64,000 nt of DNA from Hyphomonadaceae bacterium. GTDB taxonomy: Bacteria > Pseudomonadota > Alphaproteobacteria > Caulobacterales > Aquidulcibacteraceae. The notes below the pieces were generated by a model. The model ran no database searches, was not told the DNA's origin, and saw only the letters and a program-made list of their open reading frames with translations. Each line of letters begins with the position of its first letter. Position 1 is the first letter of the stretch. Below are positions 12,032 through 44,433 of this stretch, piece after piece. The stretch lies in contig JAHDXR010000001.1 in NCBI GenBank assembly GCA_023384105.1, forward strand, positions 248,001 through 312,000. Reading direction: 5' to 3'. The position numbers were made by a program, and so were the translations under genes.

Positions 12032-13691
12032 AGGAGTGTAGCTCAGCTGGTAGAGCATCGGTCTCCAAAACCGAGGGCCGGGGGTTCGAGTCCCTCCACT
12101 CCTGCCATCCCGGTCCAATGGCCTTGTCCGCGCCAAAGCCCGCCGCGAGCGTGCGCAGCAGTCGGCGCTTCGAGCCGACTATGCGAACCTCGCCCACATC
12201 CACCTCGACCCGCTGGGCCAACGCGCGGAGGTGATCGCGCCGATAGCCGCCGCCCTCGCGGCGAATGCGTTGGCGCGCCACGCGGGCGAACCGGGTGACA
12301 TCTGCCGCCGTGATTGACCGCCCCCCAGCGCCTTCGAGGGTGCAGCGCGCCCGCTCCGCTTGGTCCTTCGCTTGATCTCGCAGGGTCTTGAGGCCCGCGA
12401 TGCGGTCCTTGAGCGCAGGATCGTCCAGATCGGCGATCCCGGCTTCGATAGCGTCGTAGAGGCGCTTCAAACGCAGTTCCGCCTCCTCGGCGCGTTTGTT
12501 CAGTTGCCCCAAGTCTGCGCGACGCTTGTCCAAGCGCTCCTGGCGACCATCGAGAATGCTGTCCAGCACCACGGCCAAGCGTTCAGGCCGCAACAGGCGG
12601 TCCTCCAGGTGCGAGGCGACCAGGTCATCAAGCTTCGCCATCGGAATGGACATGCCGGTGCAGGCTGTCGTGCCTTTGCGCATTCTGGTGGAGCAGGCGT
12701 AGTAGCGATAACGTCCGCCCTGGCCGGTACGGATTGTCATCGCGCCATCACATTTGGCGCATCGCGTCAAACCGATCAGCATCGTTGGGCCGCCCACGAC
12801 CTGAGGCGCCACAACTTTCGGACTACGGGAAGCCAACCTCGCTTGAACGGCCTCAAAGGTTTCCGGGTCGATCAAAGGCGGCACGTCCACGACCACGATT
12901 TCGTCCTTCGGCTTGCGCGCCTTGAACCTATCTTCGCGATTGAACTCGTGCTTGCCCATATAGGTGCGCCGCGTGAGTATCTTGTGGACCGCGCCTTTGC
13001 CCCACTTAGTTCCGTCGCGTGTGAAGATGCCGCGCTCGTTTAAGTAAGCGGCGATCGCCATGACGCCGAGCGAGCCTGTCTCAGGATCGCCATGCAGCGC
13101 GAGGCGAAACATCAATCTCACCGTGTCCGCATGCAGTGGGTCAATCTCGATCTTTTTCTTGACCCGCGCGCCGCGTTCCTCAGCGACGACGGTGCGATAG
13201 CCGATCGGCGGGCGGGCGCCGTTCCAGAAACCTTGCCGCGCGTTTTCCTTTTGGGCGCGGATAACGTGCTTGGCGTTCTCCTTAGACTGATACTCATCAA
13301 ACAGCGCCATGATCTGGCGCATCATGACGTGCATCGGGTCGTCGCCGATCTCTTGCGTGATTGACACCAGCTTGACACCGCTCCGAGCCAGCTTTCTGAC
13401 GTAGAACTCCAACTCGAAGTGGTCGCGGAAGAAGCGGCTGAAGGAGTGAACGATGACGACATCGAAAGCGGGGGGCTTTGATGTGCCAGCTTCGATCATG
13501 CGTTGAAATTCGGGGCGGCGATCGTTGGTCGCCGACGCGCCTGGCTCAACATAGGTCTCGACCAACTGGTAGCCGCGGTTCGCGCAATACGCTTCACCTT
13601 GCCGCCGCTGATCGGGAATCGATACATCGTGTTCAGCCTGTCTAGCCGTTGAAACGCGCAAATAAAGGGCGGCGCGAAGCGGAACGGTCAT
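11673..13691 (-). CDS. large serine recombinase, frame reading through tRNA-Trp
   Basis: The frame is 672 codons, but only residues 1-528 belong to the inserted element. From residue 529 the frame is the antisense of tRNA-Trp (WQEWRDSNPRPSVLETDALP...) and then upstream chromosome. Domains in order: N-terminal resolvase domain with LYLRVSTARQ (nucleophile Ser14) and FSRFFRD; recombinase domain with an HTH-like RTYMGKHEF region; zinc ribbon CAKCDG ... YYACSTRMRKGTTAC (about residues 320-360); and a charged coiled coil with RRADLGQLNKRAEEAELRLK. Such enzymes integrate and excise phages and integrative elements at short att sites. The start is ATG 13691, with a poor ribosome-binding site. It lies with the small gene at 13713, and integration at or near the tRNA 3' end is implied. 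Confidence 0.88.
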   Translation of the reverse strand: MTVPLRAALYLRVSTARQAEHDVSIPDQRRQGEAYCANRGYQLVETYVEPGASATNDRRPEFQRMIEAGTSKPPAFDVVIVHSFSRFFRDHFELEFYVRKLARSGVKLVSITQEIGDDPMHVMMRQIMALFDEYQSKENAKHVIRAQKENARQGFWNGARPPIGYRTVVAEERGARVKKKIEIDPLHADTVRLMFRLALHGDPETGSLGVMAIAAYLNERGIFTRDGTKWGKGAVHKILTRRTYMGKHEFNREDRFKARKPKDEIVVVDVPPLIDPETFEAVQARLASRSPKVVAPQVVGGPTMLIGLTRCAKCDGAMTIRTGQGGRYRYYACSTRMRKGTTACTGMSIPMAKLDDLVASHLEDRLLRPERLAVVLDSILDGRQERLDKRRADLGQLNKRAEEAELRLKRLYDAIEAGIADLDDPALKDRIAGLKTLRDQAKDQAERARCTLEGAGGRSITAADVTRFARVARQRIRREGGGYRRDHLRALAQRVEVDVGEVRIVGSKRRLLRTLAAGFGADKAIGPGWQEWRDSNPRPSVLETDALPAELHSCPARLHACEHGIRETAARALTPPAGRGRAYAPRRRHGQGRGWRAGLQTCPSRRGRGRARSASSAGSRTASRPAFRPGSGSPAEPISTPSPPLSRPSPTPHPHRRRGNERRGFDLRGHAP
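12032..12107 (+). tRNA. tRNA-Trp (anticodon CCA)
   Basis: 76 nt including encoded CCA. Acceptor AGGAGTG (12032-12038) pairs with CACTCCT (12097-12103), discriminator G. The D-arm GCTCAGCTGGTAGAGC, the anticodon loop CTCCAAA with anticodon CCA, and the T-arm GGTTCGAGTCC are all present. tRNA-Trp usually stands directly before secE-nusG in alphaproteobacteria, so this marks the left edge of inserted DNA. Confidence 0.97.
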
Positions 13692-31374: not shown

Positions 31375-34300
31375 GGCCTGCGCGTGATGCGCAGGAAAAG
31401 GAGATCGGCCCAGACCCGCACGTACTCGACGCTGTAGCTTCAATGAGGCCTGCGCGTGATGCGCAGGAAAAGTGCTCCGCGGCCAAGGCAATAACGGCCT
31501 CACCATGGCTTCAATGAGGCCTGCGCGTGATGCGCAGGAAAAGTCGAGCGCTCGCTGAAGCAGATCGCCAAGAAAGGTCGACTTCAATGAGGCCTGCGCG
31601 TGATGCGCAGGAAAAGGGGCCGAATGACAGCGCCTATGGCGACAAATCTTGGGTCGCCGCTTCAATGAGGCCTGCGCGTGATGCGCAGGAAAAGGGAGAA
31701 GCCACCGGCAGCGCTCACGTCGCCGCCGAAGGCTTCAATGAGGCCTGCGCGTGATGCGCAGGAAAAGGCGGTGAGCCCGTCCGGATCGATGGAATAGCGG
31801 GCCGACCGCTTCAATGAGGCCTGCGCGTGATGCGCAGGAAAAGGCCGCCAGCGATCGGGGGCAAGTTCGCGGGACTGATCGGGCCGCTTCAATGAGGCCT
31901 GCGCGTGATGCGCAGGAAAAGGCGGTTGTCGTGGGACATTGGCTCTCCTTCCCTTGCGTGGCTTCAATGAGGCCTGCGCGTGATGCGCAGGAAAAGGTTC
32001 GCGCCGTTCCGCTGCCGACATGGAGCGGGGATCGCCGGCTTCAATGAGGCCTGCGCGTGATGCGCAGGAAAAGGATGTCGCCGGCGCGCTGCGCAGCGAC
32101 GACATTTCCACTTCAATGAGGCCTGCGCGTGATGCGCAGGAAAAGGGCGTTGCGGGCGGCGCCTCACGACGCTCGATCAGCGACTTCAATGAGGCCTGCG
32201 CGTGATGCGCAGGAAAAGGGTGATAGTTCCAGTAGTCCGACGGAGAGTTCATGTGCCGGCTTCAATGAGGCCTGCGCGTGATGCGCAGGAAAAGGAGCTC
32301 GCCCCAGGACGGCCCCATCTCCAAGTCCACCTTGCTTCAATGAGGCCTGCGCGTGATGCGCAGGAAAAGGCGGATCGCCTTCGGTCAGAACTTCCTCGCC
32401 CTTCTTGCTTCAGTGAGGCCTGCGCGTGATGCGCAGGAAAAGGTCGGCGTTGAGCACCTTCGATTCCTCTTGGCGCCGGCTTCAATGAGGCCTGCGCGTG
32501 ATGCGCAGGAAAAGGTACTTCGCGCGCAAAGTAGGAACTGGACCGACCCTCGCTTCAATGAGGCCTGCGCGTGATGCGCAGGAAAAGGTTGCGCTCGCCC
32601 GCGATGAAGCGGCGAAGGGCAAGCCGGGCTTCAATGAGGCCTGCGCGTGATGCGCAGGAAAAGGTGCCGTTGCCGTAATCGGCCAATGCCAGCTCCTCGA
32701 GCTTCAATGAGGCCTGCGCGTGATGCGCAGGAAAAGGACCGAAGGGTTGAAGGAATGGGGCATCGTTCCCGTCCGGCTTCAATGAGGCCTGCGCGTGATG
32801 CGCAGGAAAAGGGTCACGCGGAAGGTCTTGCAGGTGAAGGGCGTGGACGCTTCAATGAGGCCTGCGCGTGATGCGCAGGAAAAGGAGGAAACTCGCGGCC
32901 AGCGAAAGACTTCGCCGCGCGCTTCAATGAGGCCTGCGCGTGATGCGCAGGAAAAGGAAATCTCCCGCGAAGCTGCCATCGTGAAGGCCGAGGCTTCAAT
33001 GAGGCCTGCGCGTGATGCGCAGGAAAACACGTAATTGGCGCGCTTCGTGTTGACGATTTCCGAGCTTCAATGAGGCCTGCGCGTGATGCGCAGGAAAAGG
33101 GGCGCGGCGGTCGACGTCGCGCCGTACGTGCACCGGCTTCAATGAGGCCTGCGCGTGATGCGCAGGAAAACGAGCTCGACCGCCGCCAGCGCGATCATGC
33201 CGCCCCAGCTTCAATGAGGCCTGCGCGTGATGCGCAGGAAAAGCACAGGTCGTCCGTCGACGAGCAATCACAACTTCCTGCTTCAATGAGGCCTGCGCGT
33301 GATGCGCAGGAAAAGCGAGCGGTCTCCGTGGACTCGCGACGCGTTGCACGCTTCAATGAGGCCTGCGCGTGATGCGCAGGAAAAGCGGCGCGGTCGGCCG
33401 CGCGGATCGCGGCGTGCAGCTGGCTTCAATGAGGCCTGCGCGTGATGCGCAGGAAAATGGGCGGCGGGCTGGCGCTGCAGACCGACGTCATCCTGCTTCA
33501 ATGAGGCCTGCGCGTGATGCGCAGGAAAATTCCTTTTGGTCCATCGCCATCCACCTGCACATAGCCGTCGCTTCAATGAGGCCTGCGCGTGATGCGCAGG
33601 AAAACGCGCTGCGGAAGAACTGCTTCATCTACATCATCAAGTCGCTTCAATGAGGCCTGCGCGTGATGCGCAGGAAAACTTGGCTATGTGAACCAAGTTG
33701 ATCACGGCAACTCGAACCCGCTTCAATGAGGCCTGCGCGTGATGCGCAGGAAAATTGTCCTCTTCGTACTCGGTGCGCTCGCGACCGAGGCTTCAATGAG
33801 GCCTGCGCGTGATGCGCAGGAAAACGGTGCGTGCGGATCGCGGTGGCGGCGCGCTCGGCGGCTTCAATGAGGCCTGCGCGTGATGCGCAGGAAAAGCCGG
33901 TGTCGCGCGATGGGCTGCTGCGCTGGATCGACGAGCTTCAATGAGGCCTGCGCGTGATGCGCAGGAAAAGATGAGATCGGGACCACGCTCGGCCCATGGT
34001 TGCGCGCTTCAATGAGGCCTGCGCGTGATGCGCAGGAAAAATGGCCGCTGGAACAAGCTTGCTGCGATGGTGACTGCGCTTCAATGAGGCCTGCGCGTGA
34101 TGCGCAGGAAAAGCTGCGGACCTGACGAAGCAAGCGATCATTGATTGGTAGCTTCAATGAGGCCTGCGCGTGATGCGCAGGAAAACGGTGCTCGTCGCGT
34201 CCGACATAGACGATCTGCTCACCGCTTCAATGAGGCCTGCGCGTGATGCGCAGGAAAAGCGTCGGGATAGAGGGTTACATTGAAGATATGGCCGCTTCAA

Positions 34301-37300
34301 TGAGGCCTGCGCGTGATGCGCAGGAAAAACGCCGTGTCCCTGTTCAGAAGGCCCTTTACCTCGATGCTTCAATGAGGCCTGCGCGTGATGCGCAGGAAAA
34401 TTCGGTGCAGAAATACCTGCGCAAGACCGACCCCAAGGCTTCAATGAGGCCTGCGCGTGATGCGCAGGAAAATGGTGCCTCCTCGTCGATGAGCTCCTGC
34501 TCCTCCTCGCTTCAATGAGGCCTGCGCGTGATGCGCAGGAAAATAATTTTGCATCGCAGCCCGCGCTCCCTGAATTCCTCCTCGCTTCAATGAGGCCTGC
34601 GCGTGATGCGCAGGAAAATTAAAGGCGCGAACCAGAAGATCGACGGCGAAGAAGGCGCTTCAATGAGGCCTGCGCGTGATGCGCAGGAAAATTCCCGGGC
34701 GCCGCTCCGGGTCTGGTCCTGCACCAATTGCTTCAATGAGGCCTGCGCGTGATGCGCAGGAAAACGACATGCGCACCGCGCTCGGCTACGCGCATCAGGG
34801 CGCTTCAATGAGGCCTGCGCGTGATGCGCAGGAAAACCCATTTGGTCAAGTGGCAATATCGCTAAGGCATTAGGCTTCAATGAGGCCTGCGCGTGATGCG
34901 CAGGAAAAGCGGAGCTGCGCATGGAGCGCGCCCGCAAGAAGTGGGACGCTTCAATGAGGCCTGCGCGTGATGCGCAGGAAAAAAGATGATCGCCGAGGCC
35001 GCGCGCGCCGCCATCGCGGCTTCAATGAGGCCTGCGCGTGATGCGCAGGAAAATTGTGCACCCCGATTATTGCGGTTTCGGGCTGGGGATGCTTCAATGA
35101 GGCCTGCGCGTGATGCGCAGGAAAAATCATCACGCCCGACCTCAGACTGATCGTCGACTAGCTTCAATGAGGCCTGCGCGTGATGCGCAGGAAAAAGCCC
35201 TGATCCACCGGCGCGACCGGGCACTGCCGATCGCTTCAATGAGGCCTGCGCGTGATGCGCAGGAAAAGGGTAGGCCGATGGGGCGCAGGCGAGACGAGAC
35301 GCTGGCTTCAATGAGGCCTGCGCGTGATGCGCAGGAAAAGCGCGGCCTCGCTCATCATGCTCGCGGGAAACGAAATCGCTTCAATGAGGCCTGCGCGTGA
35401 TGCGCAGGAAAAGGCTCAAGTACGCGGTGATCTACAGCGACACCGCCACGCTTCAATGAGGCCTGCGCGTGATGCGCAGGAAAACCAGCGTGTCGTGATC
35501 CACCCGACGCGCAAGCTGGTACGCTTCAATGAGGCCTGCGCGTGATGCGCAGGAAAAGCGCGGCTCGCTGTCGAACCGCCGCGATAGTCTGGTGGCTTCA
35601 ATGAGGCCTGCGCGTGATGCGCAGGAAAAGCGCGGACGACGCGGCTGCGCTTCTGCGCATCGCGGCTTCAATGAGGCCTGCGCGTGATGCGCAGGAAAAG
35701 CGGAGCACATGGCGCGCGCCGGCTTCGACGTGCGCGGCTTCAATGAGGCCTGCGCGTGATGCGCAGGAAAAGGCGCAGGCGCGTCCCTTGCGTCCTCCAA
35801 CGCCGCAGCTTCAATGAGGCCTGCGCGTGATGCGCAGGAAAACTTCGCTGGCTTGACCGAGATCGCGCAATTCGCTGCGGCTTCAATGAGGCCTGCGCGT
35901 GATGCGCAGGAAAATGGCGGATATAGAAGAGGCCAGCCGAGCCGGGATTAGTGCTTCAATGAGGCCTGCGCGTGATGCGCAGGAAAACCGGACGCTTCGT
36001 CATCGCAGAGTCCAGCGACGGAACGCTTCAATGAGGCCTGCGCGTGATGCGCAGGAAAAAGGCGGAAGCCCGCACCCAAAACGTCAATGCGACAATGCTT
36101 CAATGAGGCCTGCGCGTGATGCGCAGGAAAACTTTATCACAAGGCCATCGGCTACACATTCGATTCAGTCGCTTCAATGAGGCCTGCGCGTGATGCGCAG
36201 GAAAATCAACTCCTTCATTGGAAGTGCCATCGGCTCAAGACGCTTCAATGAGGCCTGCGCGTGATGCGCAGGAAAACCGCGCCGCCATCGCCAAGCGCCA
36301 ACCCCGCTAGTTTGCTTCAATGAGGCCTGCGCGTGATGCGCAGGAAAAGCGTTGAGTGTCTCGCCAACTGCCCGGCGAGCTGGGCTGTGCTTCAATGAGG
36401 CCTGCGCGTGATGCGCAGGAAAAGGGCAAACGAATCAAACACTACTTTGGACCGTCTCGCGGTGCTTCAATGAGGCCTGCGCGTGATGCGCAGGAAAATG
36501 GAAGGGCCGGCCCTGCTATCAGCTCGAACCCAAGGTGCTTCAATGAGGCCTGCGCGTGATGCGCAGGAAAAGCGCCCCGGAGCTGCAGGAAGCGGCGACG
36601 CTGCGCCGTGCTTCAATGAGGCCTGCGCGTGATGCGCAGGAAAAGCGTCAGCTCGAACAGCGCGCCCACGTGGCGTTCATCGTGCTTCAATGAGGCCTGC
36701 GCGTGATGCGCAGGAAAACGCACCAGCGCACGCGGCCCGTAATTGAAATGCCAGCTTCAATGAGGCCTGCGCGTGATGCGCAGGAAAAGACGCGGCGCAA
36801 CGTGTCCAGCCGCGCGGCGTTGCGGCTTCAATGAGGCCTGCGCGTGATGCGCAGGAAAAGCGAATACATGGAGACGTTCGGGCTCGATCTCGAAGCTTCA
36901 ATGAGGCCTGCGCGTGATGCGCAGGAAAAGGGGCGACCGCCGAACATCTCGCTGGTGGACGCCTGGTAGCTTCAATGAGGCCTGCGCGTGATGCGCAGGA
37001 AAAGATGACTGGCGAGGAGCTCGCAGCGTGGGCCAACGCGCTTCAATGAGGCCTGCGCGTGATGCGCAGGAAAAGTCGGGGCCGGGGTGTACGCCTTCCA
37101 ATCGGCGTCGAGCGCTTCAATGAGGCCTGCGCGTGATGCGCAGGAAAATGTGTTTTCGCGCCCAGGCTGGGTAACGAGTTCGTCAATGCTTCAATGAGGC
37201 CTGCGCGTGATGCGCAGGAAAACCCGATCACGGCAGTCGCACGCCTCACAGGCTCTCCACGCTTCAATGAGGCCTGCGCGTGATGCGCAGGAAAACAGTG

Positions 37301-40300
37301 GCCGCGGGCGGGGCGCGGGTGACGTTGACGCCGCTTCAATGAGGCCTGCGCGTGATGCGCAGGAAAAAAGCGTGCTGTTGGCGCTCACCTTCGTCGAGGA
37401 CCAGCTTCAATGAGGCCTGCGCGTGATGCGCAGGAAAAGTCAAGGCGACACCGCCTTCATCGCCCGTTTCATGCGGCTTCAATGAGGCCTGCGCGTGATG
37501 CGCAGGAAAAATGCCCGCCAACGCTTCGGCGCCGATTTACGCCCCGTACGCTTCAATGAGGCCTGCGCGTGATGCGCAGGAAAACCGGTGCGTTTCTTCT
37601 GTTTCTCGACGGCTTCATGGCTTCAATGAGGCCTGCGCGTGATGCGCAGGAAAACCGCGATCTCCTTGAGGAATATGCGCTTCTGCTCGTCGTCGCTTCA
37701 ATGAGGCCTGCGCGTGATGCGCAGGAAAACCGTTCGGGCCGAACGGTTGCTAACCAAGACCCAAGAAGCTTCAATGAGGCCTGCGCGTGATGCGCAGGAA
37801 AAGAAATGGACGCAATCGTTGCGGGTGCGGAAAACGAGCTTCAATGAGGCCTGCGCGTGATGCGCAGGAAAATGCTTTCGACCGGCTCCAGATCGGGGCA
37901 GCGCGCAGCTTCAATGAGGCCTGCGCGTGATGCGCAGGAAAATTTATCACAAGGCCATCGGCTACACATTCGATTCAGTCGCTTCAATGAGGCCTGCGCG
38001 TGATGCGCAGGAAAAAAGCAGACTTGGGACGAGACGACCAGCTTCAGCGCGCTTCAATGAGGCCTGCGCGTGATGCGCAGGAAAAGCAATCTCGCGCCGA
38101 TGCACAACCGCGACTTTCTCGCTTCAATGAGGCCTGCGCGTGATGCGCAGGAAAAACGGGTTCGTTTATCAGTGCAGCGGATGGAAGAAAAGCTTCAATG
38201 AGGCCTGCGCGTGATGCGCAGGAAAAAGTCGGCCGGCGCGCCGTTGTGTCCTTAGTCACTATGCTTCAATGAGGCCTGCGCGTGATGCGCAGGAAAAATC
38301 CCAAGCGCCGCGATCTTCATTGATGAGAACCGGGCTTCAATGAGGCCTGCGCGTGATGCGCAGGAAAAACGGCCAGCCGGAGGATCGCCATGACCCGCTC
38401 GCGCCGGCTTCAATGAGGCCTGCGCGTGATGCGCAGGAAAAAGTCGATCCAGAGCTAAGTGATGGCGCGCCCGAAGAGATTCGCTTCAATGAGGCCTGCG
38501 CGTGATGCGCAGGAAAAACCGGCTGGATGACCGCGAACGACGTGCGCAAGCGTGCTTCAATGAGGCCTGCGCGTGATGCGCAGGAAAAAGCGATAACCCG
38601 GAGGAATTCGCGCATCCGTGCACGATGCTTCAATGAGGCCTGCGCGTGATGCGCAGGAAAAACTGTGAAGCGGGAGTGCGGCGAGCAGGCGGTGGCGGCT
38701 TCAATGAGGCCTGCGCGTGATGCGCAGGAAAAACCCGAACCTCGCGCGGTTAGGCCGCGCGGACTTTGAAGCTTCAATGAGGCCTGCGCGTGATGCGCAG
38801 GAAAAAGCATGACGCAATCCGAAGTGTTCAAGGCTCGCCGCGCTTCAATGAGGCCTGCGCGTGATGCGCAGGAAAAAAGGCCGATAACGAACGCGACGAA
38901 AACCGCGATCAATAGCTTCAATGAGGCCTGCGCGTGATGCGCAGGAAAAAGACGTGGCCCTCGGGCGCTCGCGCGACGTGCTGCGGCTTCAATGAGGCCT
39001 GCGCGTGATGCGCAGGAAAAAACCGCTCCGAGCGCATCGCAGGCAGAAGCCGACGCGCTTCAATGAGGCCTGCGCGTGATGCGCAGGAAAAAGTGCAGCC
39101 GTTGCGGGTCTTTCAGGAAGCGCAGCAAGCCGCTTCAATGAGGCCTGCGCGTGATGCGCAGGAAAAAGAAGCGTAAGTGATGGGTGCTGGCCGTACTCTC
39201 CGGCTTCAATGAGGCCTGCGCGTGATGCGCAGGAAAAACGTCGCCACAGTTTGACGGGCGCCGTTGAGATAGACGCTTCAATGAGGCCTGCGCGTGATGC
39301 GCAGGAAAAAACCGCTTGCGCTTTTCGTATTGGCTCAGCGTCTCGCCGGCTTCAATGAGGCCTGCGCGTGATGCGCAGGAAAAATCGCACCGTTTTTGAG
39401 TTAGCGCTGCCTGTGAACTTGCTTCAATGAGGCCTGCGCGTGATGCGCAGGAAAAAGCGGCGCGCTGTCGCGCGATCTCATCAAGCCGCCGCCCGAGCTT
39501 CAATGAGGCCTGCGCGTGATGCGCAGGAAAAAGGGCGTGGCTGAGATGGCCGACTTCCTCACCTTCATCGCTTCAATGAGGCCTGCGCGTGATGCGCAGG
39601 AAAAACCGCTTCATCTATGGCCGGCTCAACTCGATCGACTACCGGCTTCAATGAGGCCTGCGCGTGATGCGCAGGAAAAAACCACGCTCTGCGCCGGCGT
39701 GATGACGAGATCGAGCGCAGGCTTCAATGAGGCCTGCGCGTGATGCGCAGGAAAAAGCGTAGAACCAGAACGGCTGCGCGGCGAGGCCGAAGATGGCTTC
39801 AATGAGGCCTGCGCGTGATGCGCAGGAAAAAGGAGGCGCTGGCATGACCGCCTACGTCCCCCGCTAGCTTCAATGAGGCCTGCGCGTGATGCGCAGGAAA
39901 AACTGACTGGCGCGGTCGAGACGATGCAGTACGATCACAGCTTCAATGAGGCCTGCGCGTGATGCGCAGGAAAAAATGTAAGCCTCGTCCATCTCGACCA
40001 GCCCGGCGAGGCTTCAATGAGGCCTGCGCGTGATGCGCAGGAAAAAGGTTCAAGGGCTGGCGCAGATTTGACGGGAGCATTGTGCTTCAATGAGGCCTGC
40101 GCGTGATGCGCAGGAAAAAAACAAGACGCACGAACAGCTTGCCGAGGCTGTGGGGCTTCAATGAGGCCTGCGCGTGATGCGCAGGAAAAAGTTGTCGTGC
40201 GCGAAGTTCGCGCTCCACGGCCCCGGCGTGCTTCAATGAGGCCTGCGCGTGATGCGCAGGAAAAAAAGGCCGAAGTCGGCGAAGGGGTTGGCTGCATCAG

Positions 40301-41945
40301 AGCGCTTCAATGAGGCCTGCGCGTGATGCGCAGGAAAAATTCTACGCCCAAGCCAAGGACGTGGCCTGGGACTACATGGCTTCAATGAGGCCTGCGCGTG
40401 ATGCGCAGGAAAAAGGATCGATCTGACGGAACGCAAGATGCGAGACGCCGAGCTTCAATGAGGCCTGCGCGTGATGCGCAGGAAAAAGACGTGCTCGGCT
40501 TTTGAGCCGAACCAGGCGGGGTCGCTTCAATGAGGCCTGCGCGTGATGCGCAGGAAAAAGCGGCTGACGTGCCGGCGTATTACGCCGGTCGCGGCGTGCT
40601 TCAATGAGGCCTGCGCGTGATGCGCAGGAAAAACGGGATTCGGAACGGCCGCGCAAGTGACCACCCACCTGCTTCAATGAGGCCTGCGCGTGATGCGCAG
40701 GAAAAAGCGAGGCGCGCAGCCAGTGGGGCGGCTACGTCAACGCCGCTTCAATGAGGCCTGCGCGTGATGCGCAGGAAAAACCCGCAACCAGACGCGGGTG
40801 GACTGGCAAACCGGAGCTTCAATGAGGCCTGCGCGTGATGCGCAGGAAAAATCCGGCCCCGTCACGGGCTGATCCGGCACTTCTGTGCTTCAATGAGGCC
40901 TGCGCGTGATGCGCAGGAAAAACCGCGAAGGCTCGCTGGGCTAAGCCGGGGGCGCGCGCTTCAATGAGGCCTGCGCGTGATGCGCAGGAAAAAGTCAAGC
41001 GCGACAACTTCACGGGCACGCGCGGCTGGGATGCTTCAATGAGGCCTGCGCGTGATGCGCAGGAAAAAGCAGATCAGTTCTACCGCGCCGGCCAGCAGCG
41101 GATTCGCTTCAATGAGGCCTGCGCGTGATGCGCAGGAAAAAAACCCCACTTGTGGGTGAGCATTCCGCGGCTCAGCAGCTTCAATGAGGCCTGCGCGTGA
41201 TGCGCAGGAAAAAGGCGCGCTGATGCTGATCCCTGACGACGACACCTGCCTGGCTTCAATGAGGCCTGCGCGTGATGCGCAGGAAAAACGTCCTACAACA
41301 TGGACAAGGCGCAGGAGTTCGGCGGCGCTTCAATGAGGCCTGCGCGTGATGCGCAGGAAAAATCAAGGGCGCGGAAGCCCGCACGGCCAACATCGATGCG
41401 GCTTCAATGAGGCCTGCGCGTGATGCGCAGGAAAAATCAGCAGGCTTTAATTGCAGTTTAATCGGGTCTTCGAGGCTTCAATGAGGCCTGCGCGTGATGC
41501 GCAGGAAAAATCCTGGGGCGCTGTGGCGTCTCTCCCCTCTATAGGTAGCTTCAATGAGGCCTGCGCGTGATGCGCAGGAAAAACTCATTTTGATTTGGCG
41601 GCGCTGCCAGTCTTGCCACGGCTTCAATGAGGCCTGCGCGTGATGCGCAGGAAAAAGCGCCAGGCGAATGGGCTGCGGCGCACGTGCTGGCGCTTCAATG
41701 AGGCCTGCGCGTGATGCGCAGGAAAAAAAGACCTCGAACTCGCTCTGGTCCCAGCGAGCCTCGCTTCAATGAGGCCTGCGCGTGATGCGCAGGAAAAAAA
41801 TCAGGCCCGTCTCACTCGCTTTGAGCGTCAGGTGGCTTCAATGAGGCCTGCGCGTGATGCGCAGGAAAAAGGGCCGAGATCGAGCGCCAAGCCCATCTGG
41901 CTCATTTGGGCTTCAATGAGGCCTGCGCGTGATGCGCAGGAAAAA
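31375..41945 (-). CRISPR. CRISPR array, about 146 repeats and 145 spacers, orphan of effector genes
   Basis: Hand count 146 repeat copies. The plus-strand core is 35 nt, beginning GCTTCAATGAGGCCTGCGCG and ending TGATGCGCAGGAAAA. Read on the minus strand it folds as CCTGCGC-ATCAC-GCGCAGG and ends ATTGAAGC, the usual 3' handle, so transcription is predicted leftward from a leader beside cas2. The leftmost copy (31375) has lost the handle end, as expected for the leader-distal repeat. Variants: first base A at 31581, 32110 and 32183; CAGTG at 32407. Bases next to the core change in blocks (see findings). Spacers average about 37 nt. The fused Cas4-Cas1 suggests type I-G (formerly I-U); type V-B also has such fusions. 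No cas3, cas5-8 or cas12 genes are in the window. Confidence 0.98.
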
Positions 41946-42163
41946 GGCCCCCTTCGTAACTCGGGGAAAACGCTGAGAAAAGGGGGCGCTGTTCGAGCGC
42001 TGCGGTAGCAGGCCCCGAACTGCCGCGGAAACGCCCGCCAATCTGGCTTCACAATGTCAAAGAACGCTGCCTTTGCGGGCGGTTAGTCGCCTTGCGAGCG
42101 CCTCCCGGCCGAAACGGAGCGCTGGAGCGCTCGAAATACGGCGGCGTCGCTGACGACTGTGAC
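41946..42163 (-). promoter_or_regulatory. predicted CRISPR leader
   Basis: 218 bp between the last intact repeat and the cas2 stop. On the minus strand it ends ...GAAGGGGGCC directly before the repeat's T-tract, and it contains short homopolymer stretches (CCCCC, AAAA). A TTGACA-like hexamer occurs at 42060-42055 on the minus strand, but no convincing -10 follows at normal spacing. Leader identity rests on position next to cas2 and on repeat degeneration at the opposite end. Confidence 0.7.
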
Positions 42164-42616
42164 TCATACTATCACAGCTTCTCGCGTGATTGGGGTAAAG
42201 CTCTTGCCGATGCTTTCGACGCGCGGATCGATCTCGTCGGCGAGGCCAAGGTCGAGAATGACCACATGATCCTCGCCGTGATGGATCAGCCGCTCGAGCG
42301 CCGCGCCCAGATCGGCGCGCCGCCGGCCCGAAAGGCGGCATTGGAACACTGAAAGCTGCAGCCAGCGGCCATAGCCTTTCATGGTGCGGAAGACGCGCCG
42401 CCAGCGCTTTTGATCGGCGATGTCGTACGCCACGATATAAAGACGCTCGGAGGACGGCGCGCGGCCGCGCGAAGCAACACGCCGGCCCGACGGAACGAGC
42501 AGGCGGATATCTTCAGTTTCGTCATCCGTGTCGCCGGCTTCGTTCTCGGTCGGCGACTCCGTCGACATCTGATCGTCCGCGTCGGCGTCCGTGTGGGGGG
42601 CGTCCGATGCGCTCAT
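42164..42616 (-). CDS. cas2: CRISPR-associated endoribonuclease/adaptor Cas2 with an acidic N-terminal extension
   Basis: 150 residues. Residues ~57-150 are a Cas2 ferredoxin fold (RLYIVAYDIADQKRWRRVFR, GYGRWLQLSVFQCRL, IHHGEDHVVILDLG), with the conserved Asp65 in AYDIAD. Cas2 bridges two Cas1 dimers in the spacer-integration complex. The first ~56 residues (MSASDAPHTDADADDQMSTE...) are acidic and low-complexity, and are absent from ordinary ~90-100-residue Cas2 proteins. The long start is supported because its ATG overlaps the cas4-cas1 stop as ATGA (42613-42616), a coupled start. A shorter start at the internal Met17 is possible. It is the last gene before the leader and array. Confidence 0.93.
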   Translation of the reverse strand: MSASDAPHTDADADDQMSTESPTENEAGDTDDETEDIRLLVPSGRRVASRGRAPSSERLYIVAYDIADQKRWRRVFRTMKGYGRWLQLSVFQCRLSGRRRADLGAALERLIHHGEDHVVILDLGLADEIDPRVESIGKSFTPITREAVIV

Positions 42617-44313
42617 CGCGGCAGATAGTGCGGATAGTCGGGCGTTTCGCCCAGGAGATGGCGCACGAGCAGGCGCGCCTGCACATGGATGAGCCGGCGC
42701 ATCGAGATGCGATAGCCGAACACCGGATGCGTGGTCTCCTGATCGAGACGGCGTTCGTAGGCGCCGATCAGCTTTTTGCGCGCATGCGGTTTGAGGTTGC
42801 AGCCAGGGCCGGCGACGATGAAGTCGTCCGCACAGATCTCGCCGTTGTTGATCGCACCGATGACGGCGCTATCGGCCAGGATGGGGCGGAACGGCTCGAT
42901 CATATCGAGCGCAAGCGAAGGACGTCCCGGACGTTCGACGTGATAGAATCCTTTCCACGGATCGAGGCCGGCGATGGCGAGCGCGGCTTCCCATGTGCGT
43001 GTGAGCAGTGCGTAGCAGAGCGAGATGCACGCATTGATCGGGTCGGCGGGCGGACGACGGGTGCGTTTGGTGAAATCGAACGCCGGCGCCGCCGCGGAGG
43101 ACAGCATGGTCGAAAAGGCCGCGAAATAGAGAGCGGCGGCTTCGCCTTCAACGCCAAGGAGACGGCTTGTGTCCCTGGCCTCGTCCGCGAGCAGGGAAAG
43201 CTGACGCATGCGTTCCAGCGTCTTGACTTTTTCGGCGGCGTCGCCTGCGCCGTTGCGGCGCAGAAGCGTGCGTTGGTTCTTGATCTTCGCTGCGACCAGC
43301 GCGCGCGAGAACCGCAAGCTGAACAGCGTATCGCCCGCTTTTTCGTATTGCGCCGCGCGCGCGATCGCCGAGCGCGGGCCTTGCGCGCCTGTGCTTCCCA
43401 TGAACCAGAAGCCCGAACTCATCCACGCAATCGGACGGCCCTGGCGCATCAGCTCGTGCAGCGCCGGCGCCGACACCGAAATGGGCCCGGCGAGCACCAG
43501 TTCCGAGACATCCGCGATCGGCACACTGACGTCCGCTGCGCCCTCGGCCTTGACGATCAGCTCGTCCCCGCTCTTGCCCACGCGCGCGCCTGGCGTTTGC
43601 ACATAAAGCGGCAGCGCGGTGTCGGACGGCGGCGGCAGCGGGCGCGGCGGGGCGGCGCGGTCGAAATAGCGCACTTCATCGGGCAGGCAGATCGGCAGAA
43701 GCGAACAGCGCGGGCATTTCGGGCTGTTCTCCAAGGGCGGCGGGGCGCGGCGCGCGGCCGCGGTGAGGCGCAGTTCGCTCGCGGCCTTCAGCGTGAGTGC
43801 GCGCAGATCTTCATCGAAGGGGATGCGCACCCGCTCGCGGCTTTCGGCGAACCAGAGCGCGCCTTCCTCGGTTTTGTAGCCATTGTCTTCGAGGATAAGG
43901 CCTTGTGCGCAGACCTGTGCGCGCTCGGGATCGTAGGCGCCTTTCTCGGCATGGGGGCGCTTGCCCTTCTTGTAGTCGACCGGCGTGACAAGACCGTCCT
44001 CGCCCTCGAGCACGTCAATCTTGGCGATGAGGCCGAGCCGCTGCGAGGCGAGCGTGACGGCGCGGGTGCGGAAGGGCGGGGCGTTCTCGTCGGCCGCCTC
44101 CGGCGCCGGCAGCGTTCCGCCCGGCTTGTCGGCGCGGATATGGGTGCGCTTGCCTTGGGCGGTGTCCTCGTTCTCCTCCCACGAGCCCTCGACCCATTCG
44201 AGATAGGCCAGCCGCGGGCAATACACCCACTCGTTCAGCATCCGCGCCGGAACGAGCGGCTCGTCCTCCACTGCTGCGGGCGCCGGTAGCGGGAGCTCGA
44301 ATTGTTCCGCCAT
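42613..44313 (-). CDS. cas4-cas1: Cas4-Cas1 fusion protein
   Basis: 566 residues from ATG 44313 (GGAGG 11 nt upstream); an earlier in-frame ATG at 44433 would add 40 residues unlike Cas4. The Cas4 half (about 20-215) has the iron-sulfur cysteines C32 (YCPRL) and C200, C203, C209 (CPRCSLLPIC), and RecB-nuclease residues D100 and DYKKGK (113-118). The Cas1 half (about 235-566) has E389 (GVEGEAA), H458 (GFYHVE) and D470/E473 (LALDMIEPFR), the expected catalytic metal ligands. Cas4-Cas1 fusions select PAM-bearing prespacers and integrate them. The Geobacter sulfurreducens type I-U fusion does so with a TTN PAM (established); the PAM here is unknown. It heads the cas4-cas1/cas2 operon. Confidence 0.95.
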   Translation of the reverse strand: MAEQFELPLPAPAAVEDEPLVPARMLNEWVYCPRLAYLEWVEGSWEENEDTAQGKRTHIRADKPGGTLPAPEAADENAPPFRTRAVTLASQRLGLIAKIDVLEGEDGLVTPVDYKKGKRPHAEKGAYDPERAQVCAQGLILEDNGYKTEEGALWFAESRERVRIPFDEDLRALTLKAASELRLTAAARRAPPPLENSPKCPRCSLLPICLPDEVRYFDRAAPPRPLPPPSDTALPLYVQTPGARVGKSGDELIVKAEGAADVSVPIADVSELVLAGPISVSAPALHELMRQGRPIAWMSSGFWFMGSTGAQGPRSAIARAAQYEKAGDTLFSLRFSRALVAAKIKNQRTLLRRNGAGDAAEKVKTLERMRQLSLLADEARDTSRLLGVEGEAAALYFAAFSTMLSSAAAPAFDFTKRTRRPPADPINACISLCYALLTRTWEAALAIAGLDPWKGFYHVERPGRPSLALDMIEPFRPILADSAVIGAINNGEICADDFIVAGPGCNLKPHARKKLIGAYERRLDQETTHPVFGYRISMRRLIHVQARLLVRHLLGETPDYPHYLPR

Positions 44314-44433
44314 GAAACAGCGGGCCTCCTGCACGCGGAGCGTGCAAAGAATGGGCCAGACGAATGGGCTACATACTGGCGCGCCCCAGTTCCCCGAGGC
44401 TGCAAAGCGCCGATGAAACATCCCACGCCTCAT

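Follow-up and report, generated by a model that had tools for sequence, protein, structure and literature searches.

The CRISPR array and its locus

A clustered regularly interspaced short palindromic repeats (CRISPR) array is described here from a stretch of 64,000 nucleotides (nt) of a Hyphomonadaceae bacterium (contig JAHDXR010000001.1), called the window below and supplying all coordinates not otherwise labelled. The array (31375-41945, minus strand) consists of 145 repeats that each differ from the consensus at no more than one position, and a truncated terminal copy. It is read on the minus strand, with repeats and spacers (S) numbered from the leader. Repeats were called by scoring all positions against a 35-nt core, TTTTCCTGCGCATCACGCGCAGGCCTCATTGAAGC, with up to nine mismatches allowed; the 145 copies of the core run from 31437 to 41910, and 141 of them, drawn from every part of the array, are identical to it, the other four carrying one change each. 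The leader lies at the right end, adjoining cas2 and a cas4/cas1 fusion, and the truncated repeat lies at the opposite end (Table 1). The base that precedes the core differs between three blocks of the array, and we consider it likely that the leader-side integration site drifted through three successive positions while the spacer-side cut stayed nearly fixed.

By its gene content (the Cas4/Cas1 fusion, Cas2 and the effector genes) the system is type I-G. The assembly is a draft of 3.67 Mb in 28 contigs, and cas3g, csx17, csb1 and csb2, all scoring above their cut-offs, lie together at locus L158 on contig C24, away from the array contig. The repeat has the hairpin and the ATTGAAG end found in other arrays at Cas4/1 loci, and such arrays occur in genomes of the same order, in records named Caulobacteraceae and Parvularculaceae, which makes a host within Caulobacterales probable. 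At up to three mismatches the host genome contains 145 copies of the repeat; as this is the number inside the array, there is no second array of the same repeat. A possible relic of another array, two copies of GGGCCTCATTGAAGC 74 bases apart, lies on contig C25 of the same genome (L159, 6530-6618).

Table 1. Positions in the window of the array, its blocks, the adjoining genes and three spacers discussed in the text
Feature	Position	Strand	Remarks
Oldest block	31375..32992	(-)	C precedes TTTTCC in all 22 repeats and is doubled in 20 (repeat length 37 nt with the trailing C included)
Middle block	32993..38120	(-)	71 repeats of 35 nt (TTTTCC...GAAGC), preceding base unconstrained
Newest block	38121..41945	(-)	53 repeats, T before the 35-nt core (TTTTTCC...GAAGC, 36 nt)
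Truncated 146th repeat	31375..31399	(-)	25 nt, leader-distal end; from raw sequence
Leader region	41946..42163	(-)	last bases GAAGGGGGCC before five Ts
cas2	42164..42616	(-)	PF09827 and TIGR01573, both above cut-off
cas4/cas1 fusion	42613..44433	(-)	NF049935 cas4g_cas1g, 729 bits against a cut-off of 560
Spacer S55	37943..37980	(-)	38 nt
Spacer S80	36132..36170	(-)	39 nt; the S55 sequence extended by one leader-distal base
Spacer S134 with its CC	32218..32258	(-)	three terminase targets (L135, L136, L138) read GG there

Repeat boundaries and spacer lengths in three blocks

The original prediction for this array was that the bases 3' of GGAAAA on the plus strand fall into blocks, and a full tabulation bore this out: in plus-strand order, copies 1-22 carry G, copies 23-93 any base and copies 94-146 A. 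On the minus strand, the base before TTTTCC is T in every one of repeats 1-53, the first of these being the repeat at the leader. It may be any base in repeats 54-124 (C 28, G 19, A 15, T 9), and is C in all of repeats 125-146, where repeats 144 and 145 (31437 and 31508) have AC instead of CC, or GT on the plus strand. At the T frequency of the middle block (9/71), a run of 52 successive Ts has a probability of about 2e-47. The spacer-side end, GAAGC, is kept in 142 of the 145 full copies. All three exceptions, at 31581, 32110 and 32183, end in T rather than C and belong to the oldest block (3/21 full copies there vs 0/124 elsewhere; Fisher p=0.003); two of them are neighbours. The pattern fits ruler-controlled repeat duplication, in that the spacer-side boundary is constant in nearly all copies while the leader-side boundary changes.

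The mean repeat-to-repeat distances given in the original prediction were reproduced by recomputation from the repeat coordinates, at 74.2, 72.2 and 72.9 bp for the oldest, middle and newest blocks. Length statistics omit three spacers: the two with AC, of 36 and 38 nt, and the neighbour of the truncated copy. With the 35-nt core removed, mean spacer lengths are 37.87 in the newest block (n=52, minimum 36), 37.23 in the middle block (n=71, minimum 35) and 39.32 among the CC spacers of the oldest block (n=19, minimum 37), and these raw lengths differ among blocks (Kruskal-Wallis p=3.7e-4). Subtraction of 1, 0 and 2 nt from the newest, middle and oldest blocks, respectively, brings the minimum to 35 in each and leaves no detectable difference (p=0.44), in agreement with the earlier proposal that spacer size stayed fixed while the duplicated repeat changed. 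The corrected means (37.3 oldest, 37.2 middle, 36.9 newest) can be compared with 37.2 nt for 895 spacers of 28 other arrays. The difference between oldest and middle blocks is strong (permutation p=5e-5, the floor of 20,000 shuffles); that between the means of newest and middle blocks is weak (permutation p=0.03, Mann-Whitney p=0.05), and spacers of length 35 number 0/52 in the newest block vs 12/71 in the middle block. When the middle-block lengths serve as reference, the likelihood favours a shift of 1 over 0 by 15.7 natural-log units for the newest block, and a shift of 2 over 0 by 9.1 and over 1 by 2.6 for the oldest; with the pooled lengths of the 28 other arrays as reference, the oldest block favours 2 over 0 by 12.1 and over 1 by 1.6. 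A repeat length of 37 is less certain than one of 35 or 36, since +2 is preferred to +1 by just 1.6 to 2.6 log units and three oldest copies end in T.

Origin of the boundary bases

S55 and S80 are one sequence, of 38 and 39 nt, respectively, differing next to the repeat, and the adjacent base in the middle block is therefore spacer. In the oldest block, S134 targets a terminase gene. In L135 and L136, the two records examined among eight phage records matched by S134 (blastn), 33/39 and 32/39 of the non-CC bases match; in the IMG/VR contig L138, found by a pattern made from the S134 codons, 35/39 match. In all three, the CC of the array reads GG. Because the targets match up to the CC and then read GG, the CC of the oldest block was probably copied from the leader side. 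For S132, in the same block, the first C matches an Aeromonas phage and the second does not. S89, in the middle block, matches its target in the host's own genome through its last base.

The T of the newest block was probably also copied from the leader side, although the evidence is weaker than for CC. The targets of S30, S47 (27/36 match) and S48 all lack the T, but each also differs from its spacer nearby; the match of S48 ends within the spacer, and the places in its own genome share just its first 22 nt. As a yardstick, 5/12 comparably weak partial targets of middle-block spacers match at the last base, so that weak targets carry little weight.

These targets come from several searches. 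The whole array gave weak matches only among phage records (best E-value 0.04). Positions 37900-41945 matched ten plasmid records, of which three contain other CRISPR arrays with similar repeats, five are Paraburkholderia plasmids partly matching S30, and two are weak. Of 398 related genomes, 128 matched the array at E<=0.01, many of them weakly or through CRISPR arrays that they carry themselves, and the matches inspected (loci L026-L054 and the own-genome place) included one that is near-perfect, that of S89 in its own genome. Against 385 genomes of the class, the newest block gave three matches besides its own genome: another array, the tRNA end matched by S48, and a weak match. Six pattern scans of IMG/VR yielded L138 for S134, L167 for S47, and none in the other four. 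TTC precedes the targets of S134 in L138, of S47 in L167 and of S48 in L029/L030. Other triplets precede other targets: CTT in L135, CTC in L136, CTG in L137 and L139/L140, GTC in L033, GTT in L034, and GCC at the own-genome target of S89. With such a mixture, derivation of the trailing repeat base from the protospacer adjacent motif (PAM) is no more than a suggestion.

Some of these spacers are of interest in their own right. S48 (38442-38482) matches the 3' end of transfer RNA (tRNA)-Arg(ACG) in two related genomes (L029 and L030), and its first 22 nt match its own genome at C20:85686 and C20:98652, 13 kb apart, one of which is an intact tRNA-Arg. These matches suggest that S48 is directed at the attachment site of a tRNA-integrating element and that it is in part self-matching. 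Elsewhere in the window, an open reading frame at 11673-13691 matches phage integrase family PHROG 95 and overlaps a tRNA-Trp gene (12032-12107) on the other strand, perhaps marking an element integrated at that tRNA. S89 (35485-35522) matches its own chromosome (C24:277835-277873) at 37/38 positions, within a reading frame that may be hemE.

Probable drift of the leader-side cut and its alternatives

A sequence of events that would account for the blocks begins with a type I-G Cas4/1-Cas2 integrase that inserted spacers at the leader end throughout the life of the array, cutting the spacer side after GAAGC in nearly all events. The duplicated repeat would have been about 37 nt (CC followed by TTTT...), then 35 (TTTT...), then 36 (TTTTT...). 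The first change, from 37 to 35, may have been a movement of the cut by 2 nt, from between GG and CC to just after GGCC, or the loss of the two leader-terminal Cs. The last change, from 35 to 36, could have come about when the junction between leader and repeat gained a single T and cutting continued directly behind the GGCC of the leader. Since the present leader, GGCC followed by TTTTT, is of the form expected for the newest era, the gain of a T would account for this step and is its simplest cause. It should be noted that we infer the derivation of the T from the repeat, the T insertion and the cause of each change. The original prediction had combined a leader-side shift with a T insertion at the junction: the shift stands, whereas the insertion, as a proposal, fits the leader and the 5-nt tails described below and does not explain the step from 37 to 35.

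Arrays at other Cas4/1 loci provide a comparison. When one genome per species was scanned, related Cas4/Cas1 turned up at 74 loci, and 48 arrays were found there. The 38 arrays with at least eight copies (1045 copies; L114 and L130 among them have another kind of repeat) were run-tested at four positions on each side, and only L064 and L126 gave p<0.01, each reaching the lowest value that 1500 shuffles allow. The 38 contain one register shift (L126) and one first-base substitution (L064). In L064, the first repeat base changed from T (10 old repeats) to C (9 new), with no detectable change in length (p=0.53). In L126 (Planctomycetales bacterium 10988), the oldest 9/30 repeats have G before GTCT and end in G, A or C, whereas the newest 21 always end in C and have no fixed G in front; unit lengths are 72.8 and 72.3 (p=0.09). 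The block change at the leader-side base is like that of the array described here; unlike it, L126 shows a coincident change in its last base, which would suit a one-base move of both boundaries. The first A of L102 is fixed in the newest 12/26 copies, with a mixture before. The L103 array (from 12192) shows a spacer-side substitution that became fixed: its 4 oldest copies end in C and the 75 newer ones in G.

The repeat hairpin could be parsed in 42/48 arrays, the six dropped being one whose core had been counted before and five in which the core was short or ATTGAAG was missing. Tail and loop measure 4+6 in 23 of the 42 and 5+6 in 11; the two of the 42 that have a 5-nt loop (L062 and L086) have a 5-nt tail, and so does L055, whose loop is also 5 nt. 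The newest block, at 5+5, is like them, and the middle block, at 4+5, is unlike them. It is conceivable, although we hold it only tentatively, that the leader-side cut follows the junction, after GGCC, rather than an internal ruler: junction insertions and deletions would then be copied into all later repeats, and, after a period of 4-nt tails, the T insertion would have returned the tail to the 5 nt that usually accompany a loop of this length. GGCC is found at few other leaders, which lowers the odds of such junction control.

Determinants of repeat boundaries are known from other systems. In type II-A of Streptococcus thermophilus, the leader-repeat junction sets the first cut and a ruler in the repeat the second, according to the part of PMC6895254 on which we draw. 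Insertions and deletions there change the copied repeat, as proposed here; those described in that part of PMC6895254 were engineered, whereas the changes here are natural and extend across 146 type I-G repeats. For type I-E and I-B, separate determinants of the two ends set repeat size, as outlined in the parts of PMC6895254 and PMC13034035 consulted. The array likewise fits two separate boundary determinants, because its leader-side boundary moved and the other hardly did, although the I-E and I-B rulers come from laboratory mutants and other subtypes. The work on those mutants is reportedly that of Goren and of Wang, both in 2016. In this array the junction may set the leader-side end, and a ruler within the repeat the spacer-side end. 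The 5' handle of the CRISPR RNA derives from the fixed, spacer-side end of the repeat, and drift at the other end may therefore cost little. No description of a natural change of repeat length within one array was found in the literature, as judged from titles and abstract openings, with most subscription papers beyond reach.

Several observations weigh against a drift confined to the leader side. With the pooled lengths of the 28 other arrays as reference, the newest block prefers a shift of 0 over 1 by 2.8 log units, and the case for its T thus rests on the comparison within the array, the 53/53 count and the same base at the leader; the mean spacer of single foreign arrays also strays (L064 40.0 nt, L102 38.6 nt). 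No full-length protospacer for the newest block was found in the phage, plasmid, genome and IMG/VR searches. The AC of repeats 144-145 and the three T-ending oldest copies are not predicted by pure copying, and the latter point to an oldest repeat that might be 36 nt plus a last base derived from the spacer or PAM. The drift leans on an ancestral leader state that we infer, and no close strain with the same array was found among the genomes searched, including the 398 related genomes and the one-per-species Cas4/1 scan. A leader end of GGCC is not general, occurring in 4/42 arrays (L064, L065, L094 and L125) and in the flank of the first L055 copy; the leader of the closest Cas4/1 relative, L062 (67% identity), ends in GATGCG, without GGCC. 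Finally, the type I-G Cas4/1-Cas2 of Methanosarcina barkeri, of the same integrase family, is 80-90% accurate in vitro at the leader side vs 60-70% at the spacer side, and the part of PMC10504553 on which we draw describes no drift over time. Greater accuracy at the leader side is the opposite of what drift at that side alone would lead one to expect.

The alternative that survives best, although we regard it as unlikely, is a rigid duplication of about 36 nt that shifted its register, from CC...GAAG in the oldest block to T...GAAGC in the newest, with both cuts moving together and the 35-nt repeats as the exception. It overlaps the drift proposed above, the leader side moving in both, and draws on L126, where both ends change at one point with similar unit lengths, and on the three T-ending copies of the oldest block (p=0.003); yet 18/21 full copies in that block still end in C, and the 35-nt repeats of the middle block have no fixed extra base on either side. 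It is less likely still that the block-specific bases are prespacer end motifs, trimming by Cas4, Cas1 or a host nuclease having chosen CC, any or T ends by era. Some Cas4 systems do select a motif at the non-PAM end, and the pooled foreign lengths slightly prefer this explanation for the newest block (by the 2.8 log units above), but spacer lengths within the array shift along with the motif, the three S134 targets read GG and not CC, and the same T stands before the leader-adjacent repeat, where the base belongs to the leader and not to a spacer. Least probable is that recombination joined blocks which had grown in separate strains or arrays, each with a leader-repeat junction of its own. 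Such a fusion would suit the uniform blocks and sharp boundaries, but the drift would still have taken place, only in another strain, and fusion sits poorly with a host genome that has no second array of the same repeat and with 141/145 copies identical over the core across blocks.

A drift of the leader-side cut carries a practical warning, in that software can misplace spacer ends by one or two bases throughout whole blocks. It also bears on the usual assumption of a single repeat length per array, in place of which this array preserves, in order, three positions of the leader-side cut (runs of 22, 71 and 53 repeats). The runs are long enough for statistics and allow what determines each of the two repeat boundaries to be told apart in nature, and the array supplies sequences with which junction and ruler control could be tested directly in type I-G.
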